Shown: positions 52,416 to 58,989 of the stretch, one piece after another
Layout of the letters: every line of letters begins with the position of its first letter
Numbering within the stretch: position 1 is the stretch's first letter
NCBI RefSeq assembly: GCF_022343555.1
Contig: NZ_JAKQZH010000002.1
Location: 744,001-808,000, forward strand
Source of the DNA: Marinobacter sp. C7
GTDB taxonomy: Bacteria; Pseudomonadota; Gammaproteobacteria; Pseudomonadales; Oleiphilaceae
Reading direction: 5' to 3'
DNA length: 64,000 nt
Notes under the pieces: generated by a model
What the model was told of the DNA's origin: nothing
What the model saw: only the letters and a program-made list of their open reading frames with translations
Databases searched by the model: none
Program-made: the position numbers and the translations under genes

Positions 52416-53145
52416 GCTGTTCGACCGCCTCGGGGCCTTGGCGGATACCCTTGCTGCCACGCCGATTCTCGCCATTGGGCTGACTCTGGGCGCCTTTTTT
52501 GCCGGTAACTGGCTGTTCGCCCGCATCGGCCGGCCTTTGTGGCTGCCGCCGGTGTTGTTGTCCGCGTGTCTGCTGTCCGGAGTGATCGCCATTCTTGCCA
52601 TCGATTACCAGGCCTACCAGCGGGGCGCAAGCTGGCTGACGGTTCTCCTGGGGCCGGCCACGGTCGCTCTCGGGATTCCGCTGTACCAGCAGATGCACCA
52701 TATCCGTGCCATGTGGCGCCCGATTGCGGTGACCTTGCCAATTGCCGCCACCCTGGCTGCGGCCTACGCCCTGGTCATTGCCTGGGCGCTGGGGGCCACA
52801 CCGGAGGTGCTGGCGTCGCTGGCGCCCAAGTCGGTGACCGCGCCCATCGCCATTGGCATTACCGAACAACTTGGAGGGGCGGTGCCTCTGATGATGGGTG
52901 GGCTACTGATTACCGGGGTCGTCGCCACCCTCTTTGTTGACATGCTCGCACGTCTGCTGCCGGTCAGGGACGAACGTATCCTGGGCTTCGCCCTCGGTCT
53001 GAACGGTCATGCCATCGGGACGGCCCGGGCATTTGCCATCAGCCACACCGCCGGAGCCTTCGCTTCTCTGGGTATGGGGCTGACCGGTGTTTTCACCGCG
53101 GTGATCCTGCCGCTCGTGGGATCGGGCATTTTTAATACCGGCTAG
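52408..53145 (+). CDS. CidB/LrgB family membrane protein
   Basis: A 245-residue membrane protein with about eight helices and the LrgB signature region KSVTAPIAIGITEQLGG, followed by GHAIGTARAF and SLGMGLTGVFTAVILPL. It pairs with the LrgA-like protein. The start is GTG at 52408, coupled to the preceding gene by an eight-base overlap. Nothing notable is seen in the 149-base gap before the next operon. Confidence 0.9.
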   Translation: MSELFDRLGALADTLAATPILAIGLTLGAFFAGNWLFARIGRPLWLPPVLLSACLLSGVIAILAIDYQAYQRGASWLTVLLGPATVALGIPLYQQMHHIRAMWRPIAVTLPIAATLAAAYALVIAWALGATPEVLASLAPKSVTAPIAIGITEQLGGAVPLMMGGLLITGVVATLFVDMLARLLPVRDERILGFALGLNGHAIGTARAFAISHTAGAFASLGMGLTGVFTAVILPLVGSGIFNTG

Positions 53146-53294
53146 AACGGTGCCCCTGCTCATGGTTTTCGGCTCGTTCCGTTAACGCCTGTACCCGAAA
53201 CTGGTATATCGCCAGCAAGGGGGTATCCTTAATAGACCAAACAATAACAAGCGCTGATCCATACGGATACAGGGCCGCTGGAAAGGGGGACGCC

Positions 53295-54581
53295 ATGGGC
53301 GATGTGTTCTCGGGGCTCTCAGATTGGTTTGATTTGACGTTCATGGGGCATGGCCATTGCTATCTCTGGCGCTCCGACCTTGTGCTGCTGCACTCTATAT
53401 CTGACAGTCTGATTGCCGGGGCCTATTTCACGATTCCGCTTGCACTCTATGTGCTTATATACAAGCGGAAGGACATCGAATATCAATGGATGTTCGTGCT
53501 CTTTGCCGTCTTCATTTTTTCCTGCGGCCTGACCCATTTGATGGCCGTCTACAACATCTGGAACGGGGCTTATTACGTTTCCGGAATTCTGAAGGCACTG
53601 ACAGCCGTCGTTTCTGTGCTTACCGCCGCACTCATCTGGCCTCTTATACCCAAGGCGCTAGCGTTGCCTCGCCCCATAGAACTCCAGGCCGCAAACCAGA
53701 AACTGCAGGGCGAAATCGCGCGCCGGAGCCTTTCGGAGAACCACCTGGAGAAGGTTCGGGTTGAGTTGGAACGTCGTGTTGAGGAATTGACGCTCACCAA
53801 GGAGCGTCTGGAACAGGAAATCGAGCGTCGTCATGCGCTGGAGCTACTGGAGCGCGAGAAAACCGAGGCTTTGCGGAGATCCAACGAGGATCTGGAGCAA
53901 TTCGCGTTTATCGCCTCCCATGATCTGAGAGAACCGCTGCGTAAGCTGCTGGCCTTCACGCAACTACTGATGACCGGAAAGTATGGTCAATTCAATGAGA
54001 AAGGCGAGCAGTTTGTCCGCTACATCCGGGAGGCGGCTGTCCGCATGGATGCGTTGCTGAACAGTCTGCTCCATTACAGCCGTATCAGTTCCAGCCCTGA
54101 AGGTGAGGAGGATATCCCTCTCGGGAAGGTGGTCGGTGACGCATGCAGGGACCTTCAGCTAAGAATTGAAGAGAGTGGTGCGTCGGTGCAGATCGATGAG
54201 TTGTGTCAGGTACATGGCAATGCCGCCCAGCTGAGGCAACTGATCCAGAACCTGCTCGGTAACGCTCTCAAATATCGTGCGCCTGGTGTGCCACCGGTGA
54301 TTCGTATCTATAGCGAAGAGGACCCTGACCTTGGCCGGTGCAAGGTGTGTGTCGCCGATAACGGTATCGGCTTTGATATGGCCTACAGCGATCAGATTTT
54401 TGATGTCTTCAAGCGATTGCATGGCCGGGGGGAATATGAGGGGACCGGCATGGGGCTGGCGATCTGCAGAAAGATCGTGGAACGGCACGGGGGGCGTATC
54501 TCGGTACAAAGTGAGGAGGGCAAAGGCACGGAGTTCTGTTTTGATCTGCCCCTGGCCCGGGGGGAGAGGGGAGAATCATGA
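53295..54581 (+). CDS. Histidine kinase with ethylene-receptor-like copper-binding membrane domain
   Basis: A 428-residue sensor kinase. The N-terminal three-helix domain (about 30-118) carries the ETR1 ethylene-binding pattern: Asp37, Tyr44, Ile47, Pro48, Ile74, Cys77 and His81, at the same relative spacing as ETR1 Asp25, Tyr32, Ile35, Pro36, Ile62, Cys65 and His69, plus KALTAVVS as in ETR1. Cys and His bind Cu(I) in ETR1. A coiled coil (135-195), HisKA domain (FIASHDLREPL, His209) and HATPase domain (QNLLGNALKYR, VADNGIGFD, GTGMGLAI) follow. There is no GAF or PAS domain. It heads a four-gene operon; its stop overlaps the receiver gene start. Confidence 0.9.
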   Translation: MGDVFSGLSDWFDLTFMGHGHCYLWRSDLVLLHSISDSLIAGAYFTIPLALYVLIYKRKDIEYQWMFVLFAVFIFSCGLTHLMAVYNIWNGAYYVSGILKALTAVVSVLTAALIWPLIPKALALPRPIELQAANQKLQGEIARRSLSENHLEKVRVELERRVEELTLTKERLEQEIERRHALELLEREKTEALRRSNEDLEQFAFIASHDLREPLRKLLAFTQLLMTGKYGQFNEKGEQFVRYIREAAVRMDALLNSLLHYSRISSSPEGEEDIPLGKVVGDACRDLQLRIEESGASVQIDELCQVHGNAAQLRQLIQNLLGNALKYRAPGVPPVIRIYSEEDPDLGRCKVCVADNGIGFDMAYSDQIFDVFKRLHGRGEYEGTGMGLAICRKIVERHGGRISVQSEEGKGTEFCFDLPLARGERGES

Positions 54582-55015
54582 AACCGGTCACTATCCTCAT
54601 GGCGGACGACGATCCGCTGGACCAACTCCTGACCAGGGAGGCTTTCGAAGAGGCGAAGGCCCTCAATCCACTGTATTTTGTCGAGAATGGCCTGGAGCTG
54701 ATGCGTTACCTGCGTCGTGAGTCTCCCTACGAAGACAAGGAACGTTACCCGACACCCGGGATCGTCCTGCTCGATCTCAACATGCCCAAAAAAGATGGCC
54801 GGGAATGCCTCCGGGAAATCCGGAGTGATCCGGAGCTTCAGCACCTGCCGGTCGTAGTCATGACCACTTCCAGCCGGGAGGAGGAAGTCTTCCAAAGCTA
54901 TGATCTGGGGGCCAACTCCTACATAACCAAACCGGTTGATTTTGAAAAGCTGGTGGCCCAGATCCAGGCCTTCAATACATACTGGTGTTCGATCGTGGAG
55001 TTGCCTGATGATTGA
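54578..55015 (+). CDS. Rcp1-like single-domain response regulator
   Basis: A 145-residue receiver protein. Acidic Asp10-12, phospho-acceptor Asp66 in LLDLNMP, Thr96 and Lys118 (ITKPV) are all in place. The PKKDGRECLREI block and the long first loop resemble Rcp1-type regulators that pair with phytochrome-like kinases. It has no output domain. The ATGA overlap with the histidine kinase makes it the likely phospho-acceptor. The next gene overlaps it by eight bases. Confidence 0.9.
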   Translation: MKPVTILMADDDPLDQLLTREAFEEAKALNPLYFVENGLELMRYLRRESPYEDKERYPTPGIVLLDLNMPKKDGRECLREIRSDPELQHLPVVVMTTSSREEEVFQSYDLGANSYITKPVDFEKLVAQIQAFNTYWCSIVELPDD

Positions 55016-56729
55016 TCATGACAAAAGTATCCGGGTTCATGTTGTCGATGATGACCCCGCGGATTTTCTGATCATCGACGAATTGCTGGGGCAATCGACG
55101 CGGTTCCGGTATGAGATCAATCATATCAGTGATATCAGTGAAGCCCGTCAGGAGCTGATCGATCCACAGTGCGATGTGTTTCTTCTTGATTTCTTTCTTG
55201 GGGCAAAAACGGCCCGTGACCTGTTGGTGGAAGCGCGCAAGCTTCACTGTCCGGCGCCAATCGTCGTCCTGACCGGAGTGGAGTCGGGCGCGCTCGATGA
55301 TGAGGTGATCCAGCTTGGCGCCGCGGATTTCCTGCCCAAGAGCGACATCACGCCGTCGCTGCTTGAACGCACCATTCGTCATGCTATTCAGCACAAGCGG
55401 GCAGAGCTTGAACTGGAGAAGATGGTCAAGCGAGACCCCCTGACAGGTCTGGGAAACCGGCTTCTGTTCGAGGAGATCCTTGAGAGTTCGCTGGCGAGAT
55501 GCAAGCGCGCTGGCACCAAGCTGGCTGTGCTGTTCATGGATCTCGATCGGTTCAAGGAGATCAATGACTCACTCGGCCACCCGACCGGAGACCTTTTGCT
55601 TCTGCTCATCGCTGACCGACTCCGGGCGGTCATTCGTGAGGCCGATTTTATTGCCCGGATCGGCGGTGACGAGTTCACCATACTGATCGACGATCTGCAT
55701 GATGCCCAGGATGCTCTCAGCGTGGCGCGCAAGATAATCCATGCCGTGTCCCAACCCTCCGCAATAGGAGGGCATGAGCTGAATGTCTCGGCAAGCATCG
55801 GGATGGCTCTTTTCCCCGAGAATGGAGACGCGCCGATCAAACTGATGCAGAAAGCGGATATCGCCTTGTATGAGGCCAAGCGGAAAGGGCTGAACAAGGT
55901 TCAGTGTTTTACTTCAAACCTGCAGACCCAGCTTGAGAAGCATCTGAACATCGAGAAAGGTCTGCGGTATGCCCTGGAACACAACCATTTTGAATTGATG
56001 CTCCAGCCTCAATGGAATCTCAGCGATCGCCGTATTTTCGGTTTTGAGGCGCTGATTCGATGGCGGTTTGGTTCGGATCTGGTTTCACCGTCGGACTTCA
56101 TTTCGGTGGCCGAGAAAACCGGATTGATCGTACCTATCGGTGAATGGCTTCTCCTCTCGGCCTGTCGTTACCTCAAGAAATGGCAGGAGCTGGGGGTAAC
56201 CCAATACCGAATTGCGATAAATGTGTCCCCGCTGCAACTGAAATCCGGTTATTTCATAGAGACAATGCAGTCCGCGTTGAACTCGACCGGCATAAATCCT
56301 GAGCTTCTTGAGGTAGAGATTACAGAGGACAGTCTGCTGGACGGCCACGAAGAGAATACCAAGGTGCAGCAGGATCTGATGCGAATCCGGGAGCTGGGGG
56401 TCAAGATTGCCATTGACGATTTTGGGACAGGCTATTCATCGCTCCGATATCTTCGTCAGTTTCCGGCAGACGTCGTGAAGATTGATAAGAGCTTTGTTTC
56501 GGGCAATGGGGGGGAGGCTCTCTCCGAACCGGAAATCTGTCGCGCAGTTGTCACCATGGCTGATTCGCTTGGCATGGAGGTTTTGGCGGAGGGAATTGAA
56601 ACCATTCCCCAACTCACACGTTTAAGGGCTATGGGATGCCGGTTGGGCCAGGGTTACCTGGTCTCTGAGCCACTCGCTTTTGACGAAGCGACGCAGTGGG
56701 CACTGGCCGGTGAAGCGGTTTCCAGATAG
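55008..56729 (+). CDS. REC-GGDEF-EAL cyclic-di-GMP response regulator
   Basis: A 573-residue protein. The receiver domain (1-125) has acidic Asp14-16 and phospho-Asp61 (FLLDFFLG). The GGDEF domain (RDPLTGLGNRL; active loop RIGGDEF near residue 219) has an intact loop and an RxxD inhibitory site (READ) five residues before it. The EAL domain (EALIRWRF near 347, LEVEITEDSLL, DDFGTGYSS, AEGIE) has its catalytic residues. Thus it can make or break cyclic-di-GMP under control of phosphorylation. The start ATG at 55008 overlaps the receiver gene. It is probably the output of the ethylene-receptor-like kinase. Confidence 0.92.
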   Translation: MIDHDKSIRVHVVDDDPADFLIIDELLGQSTRFRYEINHISDISEARQELIDPQCDVFLLDFFLGAKTARDLLVEARKLHCPAPIVVLTGVESGALDDEVIQLGAADFLPKSDITPSLLERTIRHAIQHKRAELELEKMVKRDPLTGLGNRLLFEEILESSLARCKRAGTKLAVLFMDLDRFKEINDSLGHPTGDLLLLLIADRLRAVIREADFIARIGGDEFTILIDDLHDAQDALSVARKIIHAVSQPSAIGGHELNVSASIGMALFPENGDAPIKLMQKADIALYEAKRKGLNKVQCFTSNLQTQLEKHLNIEKGLRYALEHNHFELMLQPQWNLSDRRIFGFEALIRWRFGSDLVSPSDFISVAEKTGLIVPIGEWLLLSACRYLKKWQELGVTQYRIAINVSPLQLKSGYFIETMQSALNSTGINPELLEVEITEDSLLDGHEENTKVQQDLMRIRELGVKIAIDDFGTGYSSLRYLRQFPADVVKIDKSFVSGNGGEALSEPEICRAVVTMADSLGMEVLAEGIETIPQLTRLRAMGCRLGQGYLVSEPLAFDEATQWALAGEAVSR

Positions 56730-56762
56730 GTGGTTCCTTCCGGAATCGCACAGGGAGAGAGC

Positions 56763-57245
56763 ATGGCCTTTTTAAAAAGACGGATGTTCAACGTTTGGCT
56801 CATTGCGTCAGGCCAGTCGAGAGCTGATCTGGAAGAGGCGTTGCGGGGCCATGCCCTCGGGCACAATCTGACCGTCATCCCGGATGAGACCGCGTTCGAT
56901 GTCCTGGCCAGGGATATCGACCGAGACGCGGACAGGTTTCCCAATCTCCTGATGTATCTGGTTCGGGACAGCGCGCAGGCGCCTCCGGATTTCCTCCACA
57001 AGCTCAAGGCTTCAGCCGACTTCCGCCACGTCCCGGTCATCGTTTTCCACACCGGGCGGATTGTGCCGGATATCAAACACCTCTACTCGCTTGGAGCGGC
57101 ATCTGTGATTCGGGTGCCCATCAAGTTTCACGGTCTGGTTTCGGTGATGAGGACCATTGAGGCCTACTGGTTCAATGTGGCTTCTCCGCCTCCTATCGAC
57201 GGGCCCTTGCGTACTGCCTGGGCACGACACGTTCAACCCCTCTGA
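56763..57245 (+). CDS. Degenerate receiver-like protein
   Basis: A 160-residue protein with the alternating strand-helix pattern of a receiver: VWLIASG, LLMYLVRDS, VPVIVFHTGR and ASVIRVPIKF. The acidic pair after strand 1 and the phospho-Asp at the end of strand 3 are missing (Tyr/Leu/Val there), and the strand-5 Lys is replaced. It is probably a non-phosphorylated pseudo-receiver that binds partner proteins. The ATG follows AGGGAGAG. It is the last gene of the signalling operon. The assignment is from pattern only. Confidence 0.65.
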   Translation: MAFLKRRMFNVWLIASGQSRADLEEALRGHALGHNLTVIPDETAFDVLARDIDRDADRFPNLLMYLVRDSAQAPPDFLHKLKASADFRHVPVIVFHTGRIVPDIKHLYSLGAASVIRVPIKFHGLVSVMRTIEAYWFNVASPPPIDGPLRTAWARHVQPL

Positions 57246-57426
57246 TTTGTAAAGAATTTTTCCTGGTGCGTTGAGCACCGAATCAGGTCATTCACCTGGC
57301 GAATAACTCCATGTCGCAATTTCGATTGCCGTAAGGGTTTCCCGAGACTAGCTTGTTGCCCAGGCAATCGGCGCCATTGTGCGCCGATGTTCCGTGAAAA
57401 TTCCTAAAACAGCGACGGAAAACGCG

Positions 57427-58989
57427 ATGAAAAAACTGATTGCAGCATTTGTCGGTTCCATGGCCCTGGCCGCGGCACCGGTGGCCTTGTCCGCCGAGGC
57501 AACCAAGGAACTGAAGATGGCGTACGACGCCGACCCCGTGACCCTCGATATCCATGAGCAGTTGTCAGGCGGCATCCTGCAGCTGTCCCACATGACCTTC
57601 GATCCGCTGCTGCGCTGGACGCAGGATCTGGGCTTTGAGCCCCGCCTGGCCGAGAGCTGGGAGCGTATTGACGAGAACACCATGCGCTTCAAGCTTCGCG
57701 AAGGCGTGAAGTTCCACTCCGGCAATGAGCTGACCACGGCCGATGTGAAGTTCACCTTCGATCGCCTCAAGGAAAGCCAGGACTTCAAGGCCATCTTCAA
57801 GCCTTTCAGCGGCATCAACGTGATTGATGACTACACCTTCGAGCTGGTGACCAGTGAGCCATACCCGCTGCTGTTGAACACCGCCACTTACATTTTCCCG
57901 CTGGACAGCGAGTTCTACAGTGGCCAGACCGAGGACGGCAAGGACAAGAGCGCCATCCTCAAGCACGGCAACTCTTTTGCCTCCGAAAACCTTTCCGGTA
58001 CCGGTCCCTACACCGTTGCCGAGCGAAAGCAGGGCGTGCGGGTCGAATTCGAGCGTTTTGATGACTACTGGGATTCCGAGTCCCCGGGTAACGTCGGCAA
58101 GATCGTGCTCACCCCGATCAAGGAAAACGCCACCCGGGTGTCCGCCCTGCTGTCCGGCGGTGTCGACTTCATCGCTCCGGTACCGCCCAACGATCTGGAG
58201 CGGATCAAGCGTGACAACAGCACCAACCTGGTCACCATGAGCGGTACCCGCATCATCCTGTTCCACATGAACCAGGAAAGGGTCGAAGCCTTCAAGAACC
58301 CGAAGGTGCGTCAGGCTATTGCCTACGCCATCAACCAGGAGGGCATTGCCGCCAAGATCATGAAGGGCTTCGCCACCCCGGCTGCCCAGATGTCTCCGGC
58401 GGGCTACCAGGGGCATAACGAGTCGCTTACCCCGCGGTTCGATGTCGCCAGGGCCAAGGAGTTGATGAAAGAGGCCGGCTATGAGGACGGATTCACCATT
58501 ACCATGATGGCGCCGAACAACCGCTACGTGAACGATGACAAGATCGCCCAGGCGGTGGCCGCCATGCTGGCCCGCATCAACATCAAGGTGGATCTCAAGA
58601 CCCTGCCGAAGGCCCAGTACTGGCCTGAGTATGACAACCGCGCTGCGGACATGATGATGATTGGCTGGCACGCGGATACCGAGGACTCGGCCAACTTCTA
58701 CGAGTTCCTGACCTTCTGCCCGGATGCCGACAGTGGCGCCGGCCAGTACAACGCCGGCAACTACTGCAACCCGGAGATCGATGCGCTGGTTGAGAAAGCC
58801 AACGTCGAGACCGACCTCGACAAGCGTGCCGCCATGCTGAAGGACGTGGAGCAACGCCTGTATGACGACGCTGCTTTCATCCCGCTGCACTGGCAGGACC
58901 TGGCCTGGGCGGCGAAGCAGAACGTGAAGATCGAGCCGGTGCTCAACGTGATGAACTTCCCGTACCTGGGTGACCTGGTCGTGGAGTAA
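57427..58989 (+). CDS. Peptide/nickel-type ABC transporter substrate-binding protein (DppA-like)
   Basis: A 520-residue periplasmic binding protein of cluster C. It has a signal peptide (MKKLIAAFVGSMALAAAPVALSA) and the family region GVKFHSGNELTTADVKFTFD. The late block LPKAQYWPEYDNRAADMMM is typical of dipeptide-binding proteins. The start at 57427 is set by the signal peptide. A strong hairpin after its stop probably limits expression of the downstream permease genes relative to this one. The ligand cannot be deduced beyond peptide-like. Confidence 0.9.
   Translation: MKKLIAAFVGSMALAAAPVALSAEATKELKMAYDADPVTLDIHEQLSGGILQLSHMTFDPLLRWTQDLGFEPRLAESWERIDENTMRFKLREGVKFHSGNELTTADVKFTFDRLKESQDFKAIFKPFSGINVIDDYTFELVTSEPYPLLLNTATYIFPLDSEFYSGQTEDGKDKSAILKHGNSFASENLSGTGPYTVAERKQGVRVEFERFDDYWDSESPGNVGKIVLTPIKENATRVSALLSGGVDFIAPVPPNDLERIKRDNSTNLVTMSGTRIILFHMNQERVEAFKNPKVRQAIAYAINQEGIAAKIMKGFATPAAQMSPAGYQGHNESLTPRFDVARAKELMKEAGYEDGFTITMMAPNNRYVNDDKIAQAVAAMLARINIKVDLKTLPKAQYWPEYDNRAADMMMIGWHADTEDSANFYEFLTFCPDADSGAGQYNAGNYCNPEIDALVEKANVETDLDKRAAMLKDVEQRLYDDAAFIPLHWQDLAWAAKQNVKIEPVLNVMNFPYLGDLVVE

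Follow-up and report, generated by a model that had tools for sequence, protein, structure and literature searches.

A putative ethylene-receptor histidine kinase of Marinobacter encoded in a conserved operon with a cyclic di-GMP enzyme and an Rcp1-type pseudo-receiver

We describe an operon-like group of four codirectional genes at positions 53295-57245 of a 64,000-nucleotide (nt) stretch of the Marinobacter sp. C7 genome (contig NZ_JAKQZH010000002.1, positions 744,001 to 808,000; hereafter the window, from whose first letter its coordinates are counted). The first gene encodes a histidine kinase with an ETR1-type ethylene-binding domain (EBD) and the third encodes a REC-GGDEF-EAL enzyme of cyclic di-GMP (c-di-GMP). 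The best reading of this arrangement is that it probably constitutes a membrane ethylene-receptor histidine kinase controlling c-di-GMP. An earlier note, made from the letters of the window, had placed the four genes at these coordinates, which are correct, and had proposed that the kinase is wired to c-di-GMP; this proposal is supported by the conservation of the operon and by the EBD-GGDEF and EBD-PAS-GGDEF-EAL fusions found elsewhere. All four genes lie on the forward strand of the host genome, which comprises 4.06 Mb in 108 contigs. The 428-residue kinase (53295..54581; EBD, long signalling helix, HisKA and HATPase_c, assigned through Pfam, AlphaFold2 and Foldseek) overlaps by 4 nt (ATGA) with the gene of a 145-residue Rcp1-like single-domain receiver (54578..55015; Pfam and alignment), which in turn overlaps by 8 nt with the gene of the 573-residue REC-GGDEF-EAL protein (55008..56729; Pfam, NCBIfam and alignment). 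A 33-nt gap separates the latter from the gene of a 160-residue Rcp1-type pseudo-receiver (56763..57245; alignment and fold model). The start of the REC-GGDEF-EAL gene was taken as the ATG at 55008, while the mechanical open reading frame (ORF) opens earlier, at TTG 54936; likewise, the pseudo-receiver start was taken as the ATG at 56763, which is preceded by a purine-rich stretch, while the mechanical ORF opens at GTG 56730.

Sequence comparison identifies the sensor of the window kinase as a true ETR1-type EBD. Pfam recognized ETR1_N (PF25487), HisKA and HATPase_c in the kinase, and the ETR1_N match (kinase residues 29-124, window 53379..53666) scored 120.3 bits with an E value of 4.5e-35 against a curated cut-off of 27 bits. 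The window kinase is the sole ETR1_N match in the host genome at E 0.001, and none of the 14 control genomes contains one. Alignment with the ETR1 sequence placed window residues D37, Y44, I47, P48, I74, C77 and H81 opposite ETR1 D25, Y32, I35, P36, I62, C65 and H69, the seven that ETR1 needs to bind ethylene, with 38 identities over residues 25-124 and with K100 opposite K91. The earlier note had claimed these seven residues at ETR1 spacing, and both the alignment and the family match bear the claim out. A chance three-helix protein that happens to contain Cys and His was rejected, as the ETR1_N match and the seven residues speak against it. The copper ion Cu(I) has been modelled at ETR1 C65/H69 (according to PMC6586836), the equivalents of which in the window kinase are C77/H81.

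All seven residues occur in 56 of 80 aligned EBDs including the window and ETR1 (54 of the 78 others), in 38 of the 46 members of a second EBD set that includes the window, and in every one of the 13 Marinobacter loci of a 62-locus set (13 Marinobacter and 49 other loci); across 32 aligned kinases they are invariant or at least 90% conserved. Over the sensor, the window kinase is closest among named genomes to these 13 Marinobacter loci, with 74-92% identity. Just before the first helix, the window kinase carries an HGHCYLW motif (window 53349-53369, with the cysteine C22), and a motif of the HGxCxLW type is conserved at this position, its G in 77 and its C in 73 of the 80 aligned EBDs. The motif cysteine may correspond to the cysteines through which plant receptors form dimers, or may help copper loading.

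The AlphaFold2 model of the kinase (mean predicted local distance difference test score, pLDDT, 83.6) contains three predicted N-terminal helices at residues 27-57, 64-90 and 93-122, which with 27-31 residues each would be of suitable length for the membrane, followed by one continuous helix (127-226) that runs into the HisKA region. The core contains the HisKA phospho-accepting histidine H209 and the HATPase_c residues N323, D355 and G383 expected of a HisKA histidine kinase, and its best Foldseek match in the PDB is the kinase of RpBphP2 (8f71, 43% identity). A PDB sequence search with the sensor returned zero matches at E 1, so no solved structure was at hand for a comparison with the receptor domain. 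Pfam found neither GAF nor PAS in the window kinase, in agreement with the earlier note, which had described the EBD as joined to HisKA/HATPase without GAF. The unusualness that the note attached to this feature does not hold, and the missing GAF was rejected as the novelty: AzoEtr1 of Azospirillum brasilense has PAS instead, and among five kinases from EBD operons elsewhere (loci are designated here by L numbers) that were submitted to Pfam, those of L112 (M. mobilis), L115 and L211 contain PAS and those of L219 and L224 contain neither PAS nor GAF.

An unlikely but appreciable alternative is that the ethylene fold has been kept while this clade senses another signal (Cu(I), a small olefin or membrane redox) with the same c-di-GMP output. 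The evidence for the ligand is sequence-level, and the Cys/His pair together with the HGHC motif (its C22 present in 73/80) could serve metal or redox sensing. Against this, the window and the 13 Marinobacter loci keep all seven residues, including I47, P48 and I74, for which a pure metal site has no obvious need, and two bacterial receptors of this type are reported to bind ethylene, namely AzoEtr1, which has the same seven residues (PMC11819568), and the Synechocystis receptor (PMC5812497). Ethylene sensing is the preferred reading of the sensor.

Analysis of the three downstream proteins bore out the content that the earlier note had described (an Rcp1-like receiver, a complete REC-GGDEF-EAL protein and a degenerate receiver) through Pfam, residue alignments and fold comparison. 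The second protein has the full set of receiver phosphorylation residues (acidic pair, phospho-Asp, Thr and Lys), as does the REC domain of the third. The second protein is of the Rcp1 type in being a single-domain receiver with these phosphorylation residues and a YW-containing C-terminal extension. The third protein retains, in addition to its intact REC, the RxxD I-site and the GGDEF and EAL residues; its best NCBIfam match, phosphodiesterase DibA, reached 411.6 bits, which is under the cut-off of 980 and gives no assignment. These output residues hold over 17 other Marinobacter loci and L115 except in the decayed or uncovered copies L068, L073 and L074, with small substitutions that include EAL to EGL (L067, L068), SGDEF (L115) and D to E in acidic pairs.

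By alignment and fold model, the fourth protein is a conserved Rcp1-type pseudo-receiver that is predicted to be non-phosphorylatable. Pfam and NCBIfam did not recognize it at E 0.001, and its fold model (pLDDT 75.9) found Rcp1 (1jlk and 1i3c) as the best PDB matches. The acidic pair, phospho-Asp, Thr96-equivalent and Lys are replaced or gapped in all 15 aligned rows (window, 13 other Marinobacter and L115), while L36, P60, P91, Y108, G111, S114, P119, F122 and YW135-136 are kept as in intact receivers. The distant fourth proteins of L211, L216, L218 and L222 have lost the phospho-Asp and Lys and each keep one acid of the acidic pair.

Of 124 Marinobacter genomes, including that of the window, 18 contain an EBD. 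Strong pseudo-receiver matches (E at most 2.1e-34) occur in exactly these 18 genomes, and the next match (1.9e-22) falls on the Rcp1-like receiver of one EBD operon. An operon unique to the window was rejected, as 18 Marinobacter genomes and other families carry it. Neighbourhoods together with tblastn indicate that 14 of the 18 Marinobacter operons are intact and that four are decayed, with an insertion in the third gene (GGDEF-EAL) of L068, deletions in L073 and L074 and a break in the kinase frame of L079. Two of the decayed copies belong to M. litoralis strains, one to M. similis and one to another Marinobacter. Because it is patchily present, leaves empty sites and varies in location, the operon is an accessory cassette. 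Its site is empty in six of eight EBD-negative genomes, where lrgAB is followed some 120-160 nt on by the binding-protein gene; the other two have lrgAB without a binding-protein gene in range (L249) or only a distant lrgB (L250). In M. santoriniensis (L077) the operon lies on the opposite side of lrgAB, and neither lrgAB nor the binding-protein gene is near it in L063, L067, L068 and L069. The home-made ORF caller used for neighbourhoods loses genes covered by a longer antisense ORF; it missed a receiver gene (L072/L102) and lrgAB (L077), all of which were recovered by tblastn.

This patchiness (18/124 genomes, 4/18 decayed, empty sites in 6/8 EBD-negative genomes) would suit a decaying accessory relic without current function in this strain. 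We regard such a relic as highly improbable: each of the four window genes has an open frame and its key residues (apart from the fourth protein, which is degenerate in every aligned orthologue), and every one of the four proteins has a ratio of nonsynonymous to synonymous substitution rates (dN/dS) well below 1 in the five close Marinobacter pairs that allowed measurement, none of which includes the window. The pseudo-receiver values (0.11-0.28) are rough because the ORFs used carry N-terminal extensions in some loci, and in the window/L077 pair synonymous divergence is saturated for three of the four genes. Across 19 loci, the protein distances of any two of the four genes correlate (r 0.85-0.98).

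The coupling of EBDs to c-di-GMP genes extends to other lineages. The four-gene operon occurs outside Marinobacter in L115 (an Ectothiorhodospiraceae bacterium), L211, L216, L218 (by tblastn) and L222. A sample of 390 genomes of the order, searched at an EBD threshold of E 1e-10, gave 46 positive genomes, two of them Marinobacter, and 47 EBD loci outside Marinobacter (L196-L240, L080 and L093). Ten of these have a co-directional downstream GGDEF gene (L211, L216, L218, L219, L222, L224, L228, L231, L235 and L237), five are EBD-GGDEF fusions, all confirmed by Pfam (L213, L226, L230, L232 and L240), 29 are unlinked and three are cut by contig ends (L080, L221 and L229). At least one linked locus is found in eight of the 12 assessable families of the order sample. 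Among the 49 non-Marinobacter loci of the 62-locus set, the EBD is fused to GGDEF or GGDEF-EAL in nine (L127, L139, L140, L142, L144, L149, L153, L154 and L155). Pfam confirmed all six fusions that were submitted (L127, L139, L140, L153, L154 and L155); L149 is cut by a contig end and the EAL part of L153 lies in a separate frame. The same set contains a downstream REC-GGDEF gene at L146 and, at L119, a possibly linked GGDEF-EAL gene that lies further downstream, beyond ORFs of the opposite strand; in four of the 49 loci (L129, L147, L152 and L160) the home-made caller gave no EBD open frame. A hand-picked class/phylum set of 20 loci (L081-L100; 12 of 17 class matches from genomes other than the window's own and eight of 29 further phylum matches, L093 being counted here and in the order set) added two fusions (L082 and L085) and three loci with a downstream GGDEF gene (L086, L098 and L099). 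Within this set L092 gave no EBD frame and the remaining loci show neither a fusion nor a downstream GGDEF gene; a divergent GGDEF gene lies upstream in L084, L097 and L100.

Eight of the fusions, distributed over several genera, belong by genome name to methanotrophs (L127, L139, L140, L142, L144, L149, L153 and L154). They carry PAS where Pfam was run, and L142, L144 and L154 no longer have all seven residues. Ethylene is a co-substrate or an inhibitor of methane oxidation, and this interplay is a possible reason for the methanotroph EBD-GGDEF fusions.

To obtain a baseline for kinase/GGDEF linkage, the HisKA genes of the window's own genome were surveyed. A co-directional GGDEF gene lies within 4 kb of five of 33 HisKA genes including the window kinase (4 of the 32 others). 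Two of these four belong to further copies, with other sensors, of the gene order histidine kinase, Rcp1-like receiver, REC-GGDEF-EAL (L163:7071-13648 and L164:4121-8452), and the two closest genomic paralogues of the window's Rcp1-like receiver sit in these two sister cassettes. In one of them a CHASE8-HAMP kinase, of a sensor type that is tied to c-di-GMP control, stands beside a YfiR/HmsC-like gene; in the other a PAS kinase follows a type II/IV secretion ATPase that carries a receiver. With two sensor-swapped copies in the same genome, the kinase/Rcp1-like/REC-GGDEF-EAL cassette is a module of general use, and its linkage to c-di-GMP reflects in part how kinases of this type tend to be arranged.

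These cassettes and the 4/32 other HisKA genes near GGDEF raise the alternative that the ethylene receptor is real while the c-di-GMP enzyme is a mere neighbour inherited with a common cassette, the output being the stand-alone receiver. The lone receiver described for AzoEtr1 in the available text (PMC11819568) would fit such an arrangement. We consider it improbable, since the REC-GGDEF-EAL gene overlaps the receiver gene, the catalytic residues are kept across intact loci and other lineages join this sensor to GGDEF or GGDEF-EAL within one protein. The direct fusions provide independent evidence that the ethylene domain feeds a predicted c-di-GMP output.

Several results weigh against control of c-di-GMP by an ethylene-receptor kinase. 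Adjacency to GGDEF is by itself weak, because 4/32 other HisKA genes share it, and the argument therefore rests on the fusions and the shared operon. GGDEF genes, fused or co-directional and downstream, are absent from 29 of the 44 assessable non-Marinobacter order loci, 17 of these 29 being kinases of one family. The set of seven residues is incomplete in seven of the 16 GGDEF-fused EBDs from all samples (L082, L085, L142, L144, L154, L155 and L240) and complete in the other nine. The cassette is accessory and decayed in 4/18 Marinobacter loci, and the distance correlations were computed without an outside control gene. Finally, ethylene binding, copper and phosphotransfer are predictions for the window protein, and the direction of the ethylene effect, argued by analogy with other receptors, is the weakest step.

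With these points considered, control of c-di-GMP by an ethylene-receptor kinase would proceed as follows. Three helices would form a Cu(I)/ethylene site in the membrane, in a dimer by analogy with ETR1. Ethylene at the Cys77/His81 site would shift the third helix and, through the long helix and the HisKA dimer domain, change kinase activity. The likeliest change is inhibition, the effect seen in plants. Inhibition has also been proposed for SynEtr1 signalling in Synechocystis (PMC5812497). The kinase would phosphorylate the Rcp1-like receiver, the REC of REC-GGDEF-EAL or both, which would shift the balance of c-di-GMP synthesis and breakdown and thereby attachment versus motility. The pseudo-receiver would tune the signal, most likely by pairing with either the Rcp1-like receiver or the kinase. 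Ethylene is reported to lower c-di-GMP and biofilm in Azospirillum brasilense, with the linking pathway stated to be unknown (PMC11819568). Because of this drop and the inhibition proposed in Synechocystis, we lean towards ethylene lowering both kinase activity and c-di-GMP.

Comparison with known systems highlights what is shared and what is specific. AzoEtr1/AzoRRetr1 likewise combines an EBD containing the seven residues with a histidine kinase and an overlapping downstream receiver gene, but AzoEtr1 has PAS and a lone receiver, and the available text describes its neighbours without a c-di-GMP enzyme (PMC11819568), whereas the Marinobacter operon adds REC-GGDEF-EAL and a pseudo-receiver. 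SynEtr1/UirS (Slr1212) of Synechocystis is an EBD kinase that acts on motility via response regulators, but it has a light-sensing GAF domain and works with the regulators UirR and LsiR (PMC5812497, PMC7700396). The gene of GeiEtr2, an EBD kinase of Geitlerinema, is grouped with a diguanylate-cyclase-domain gene; GeiEtr2 differs in its PAS/PAC/GAF domains and C-terminal receiver, and the neighbourhood comes from one strain (PMC6682694). PcrK/PcrR of Xanthomonas campestris also includes a plant-hormone-sensing kinase that acts via c-di-GMP turnover, but with a CHASE domain for cytokinin instead of an EBD (PMC7700396). Cph1/Rcp1 and bacteriophytochrome systems resemble the window system in the kinase core, the single-domain Rcp1-like receiver and the Rcp1-like fold of the pseudo-receiver, while their sensor is a phytochrome; the window has an EBD sensor and, in addition, REC-GGDEF-EAL and the pseudo-receiver. 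Bacterial EBD proteins are described as having a wide range of output domains (PMC7700396), and a report on ethylene and cellulose in Komagataeibacter states that a receptor had not yet been described there (PMC4686702). In the available text of the open literature searched, neither EBD operons containing GGDEF/EAL nor EBD fusions to these domains are described, apart from the GeiEtr2 neighbour, and reviews of microbial ethylene receptors may list some.

We see an even chance for a wider proposal, in which ethylene is a general c-di-GMP input in marine and methane-oxidising bacteria, the EBD has become linked to c-di-GMP enzymes several times and by three routes, and the pseudo-receiver is a dedicated regulator. 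The predicted routes are REC-GGDEF(-EAL) genes in kinase operons, fusions of the EBD-PAS-GGDEF(-EAL) type and minimal EBD-GGDEF proteins, which are 313-325 residues long. The last are represented by L226 (5386-6360, minus strand, 325 residues) and L230 (5935-6873, plus strand, 313 residues), which contain all seven ethylene residues and GGEEF without other domains and are candidate one-component ethylene-gated diguanylate cyclases. Bacterial ethylene receptors and the Azospirillum c-di-GMP drop with ethylene (PMC11819568) are already known. The conserved operon of EBD kinase, receivers and c-di-GMP enzyme, together with the minimal EBD-GGDEF proteins, makes the route from such receptors to their output directly testable with few proteins. 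Plants, bacteria, fungi and sunlight on dissolved organic matter are named as ethylene sources (PMC11819568); if the proposal is true, environmental ethylene gas would set whether marine bacteria live attached or free.

In one family of the order (L198-L210, L212, L214, L215 and L217) the EBD kinases are short, at 402-491 residues, and neither the two genes that precede the kinase nor the four that follow it include a receiver or GGDEF gene; these are possibly orphan ethylene-receptor kinases. In the similar loci L114 and L116, a receiver gene lies three genes upstream.

Around the window operon, a promoter scan gave one site against 2.5 in shuffled sequences, and no inverted repeats of at least 8 nt were found upstream. 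Rfam returned zero matches on 52900-57500 at the gathering threshold. A terminator scan gave nine sites against 4.5 in shuffles; two of them overlap where lrgB ends, on the upstream side of the operon, and none directly follows the last operon gene. The upstream neighbours are LrgA- and LrgB-type genes, identified by domain search. Downstream, the gene of a 536-residue protein that resembles a binding protein of peptide transport comes first and transporter-like genes come next, all named from the look of their sequences.

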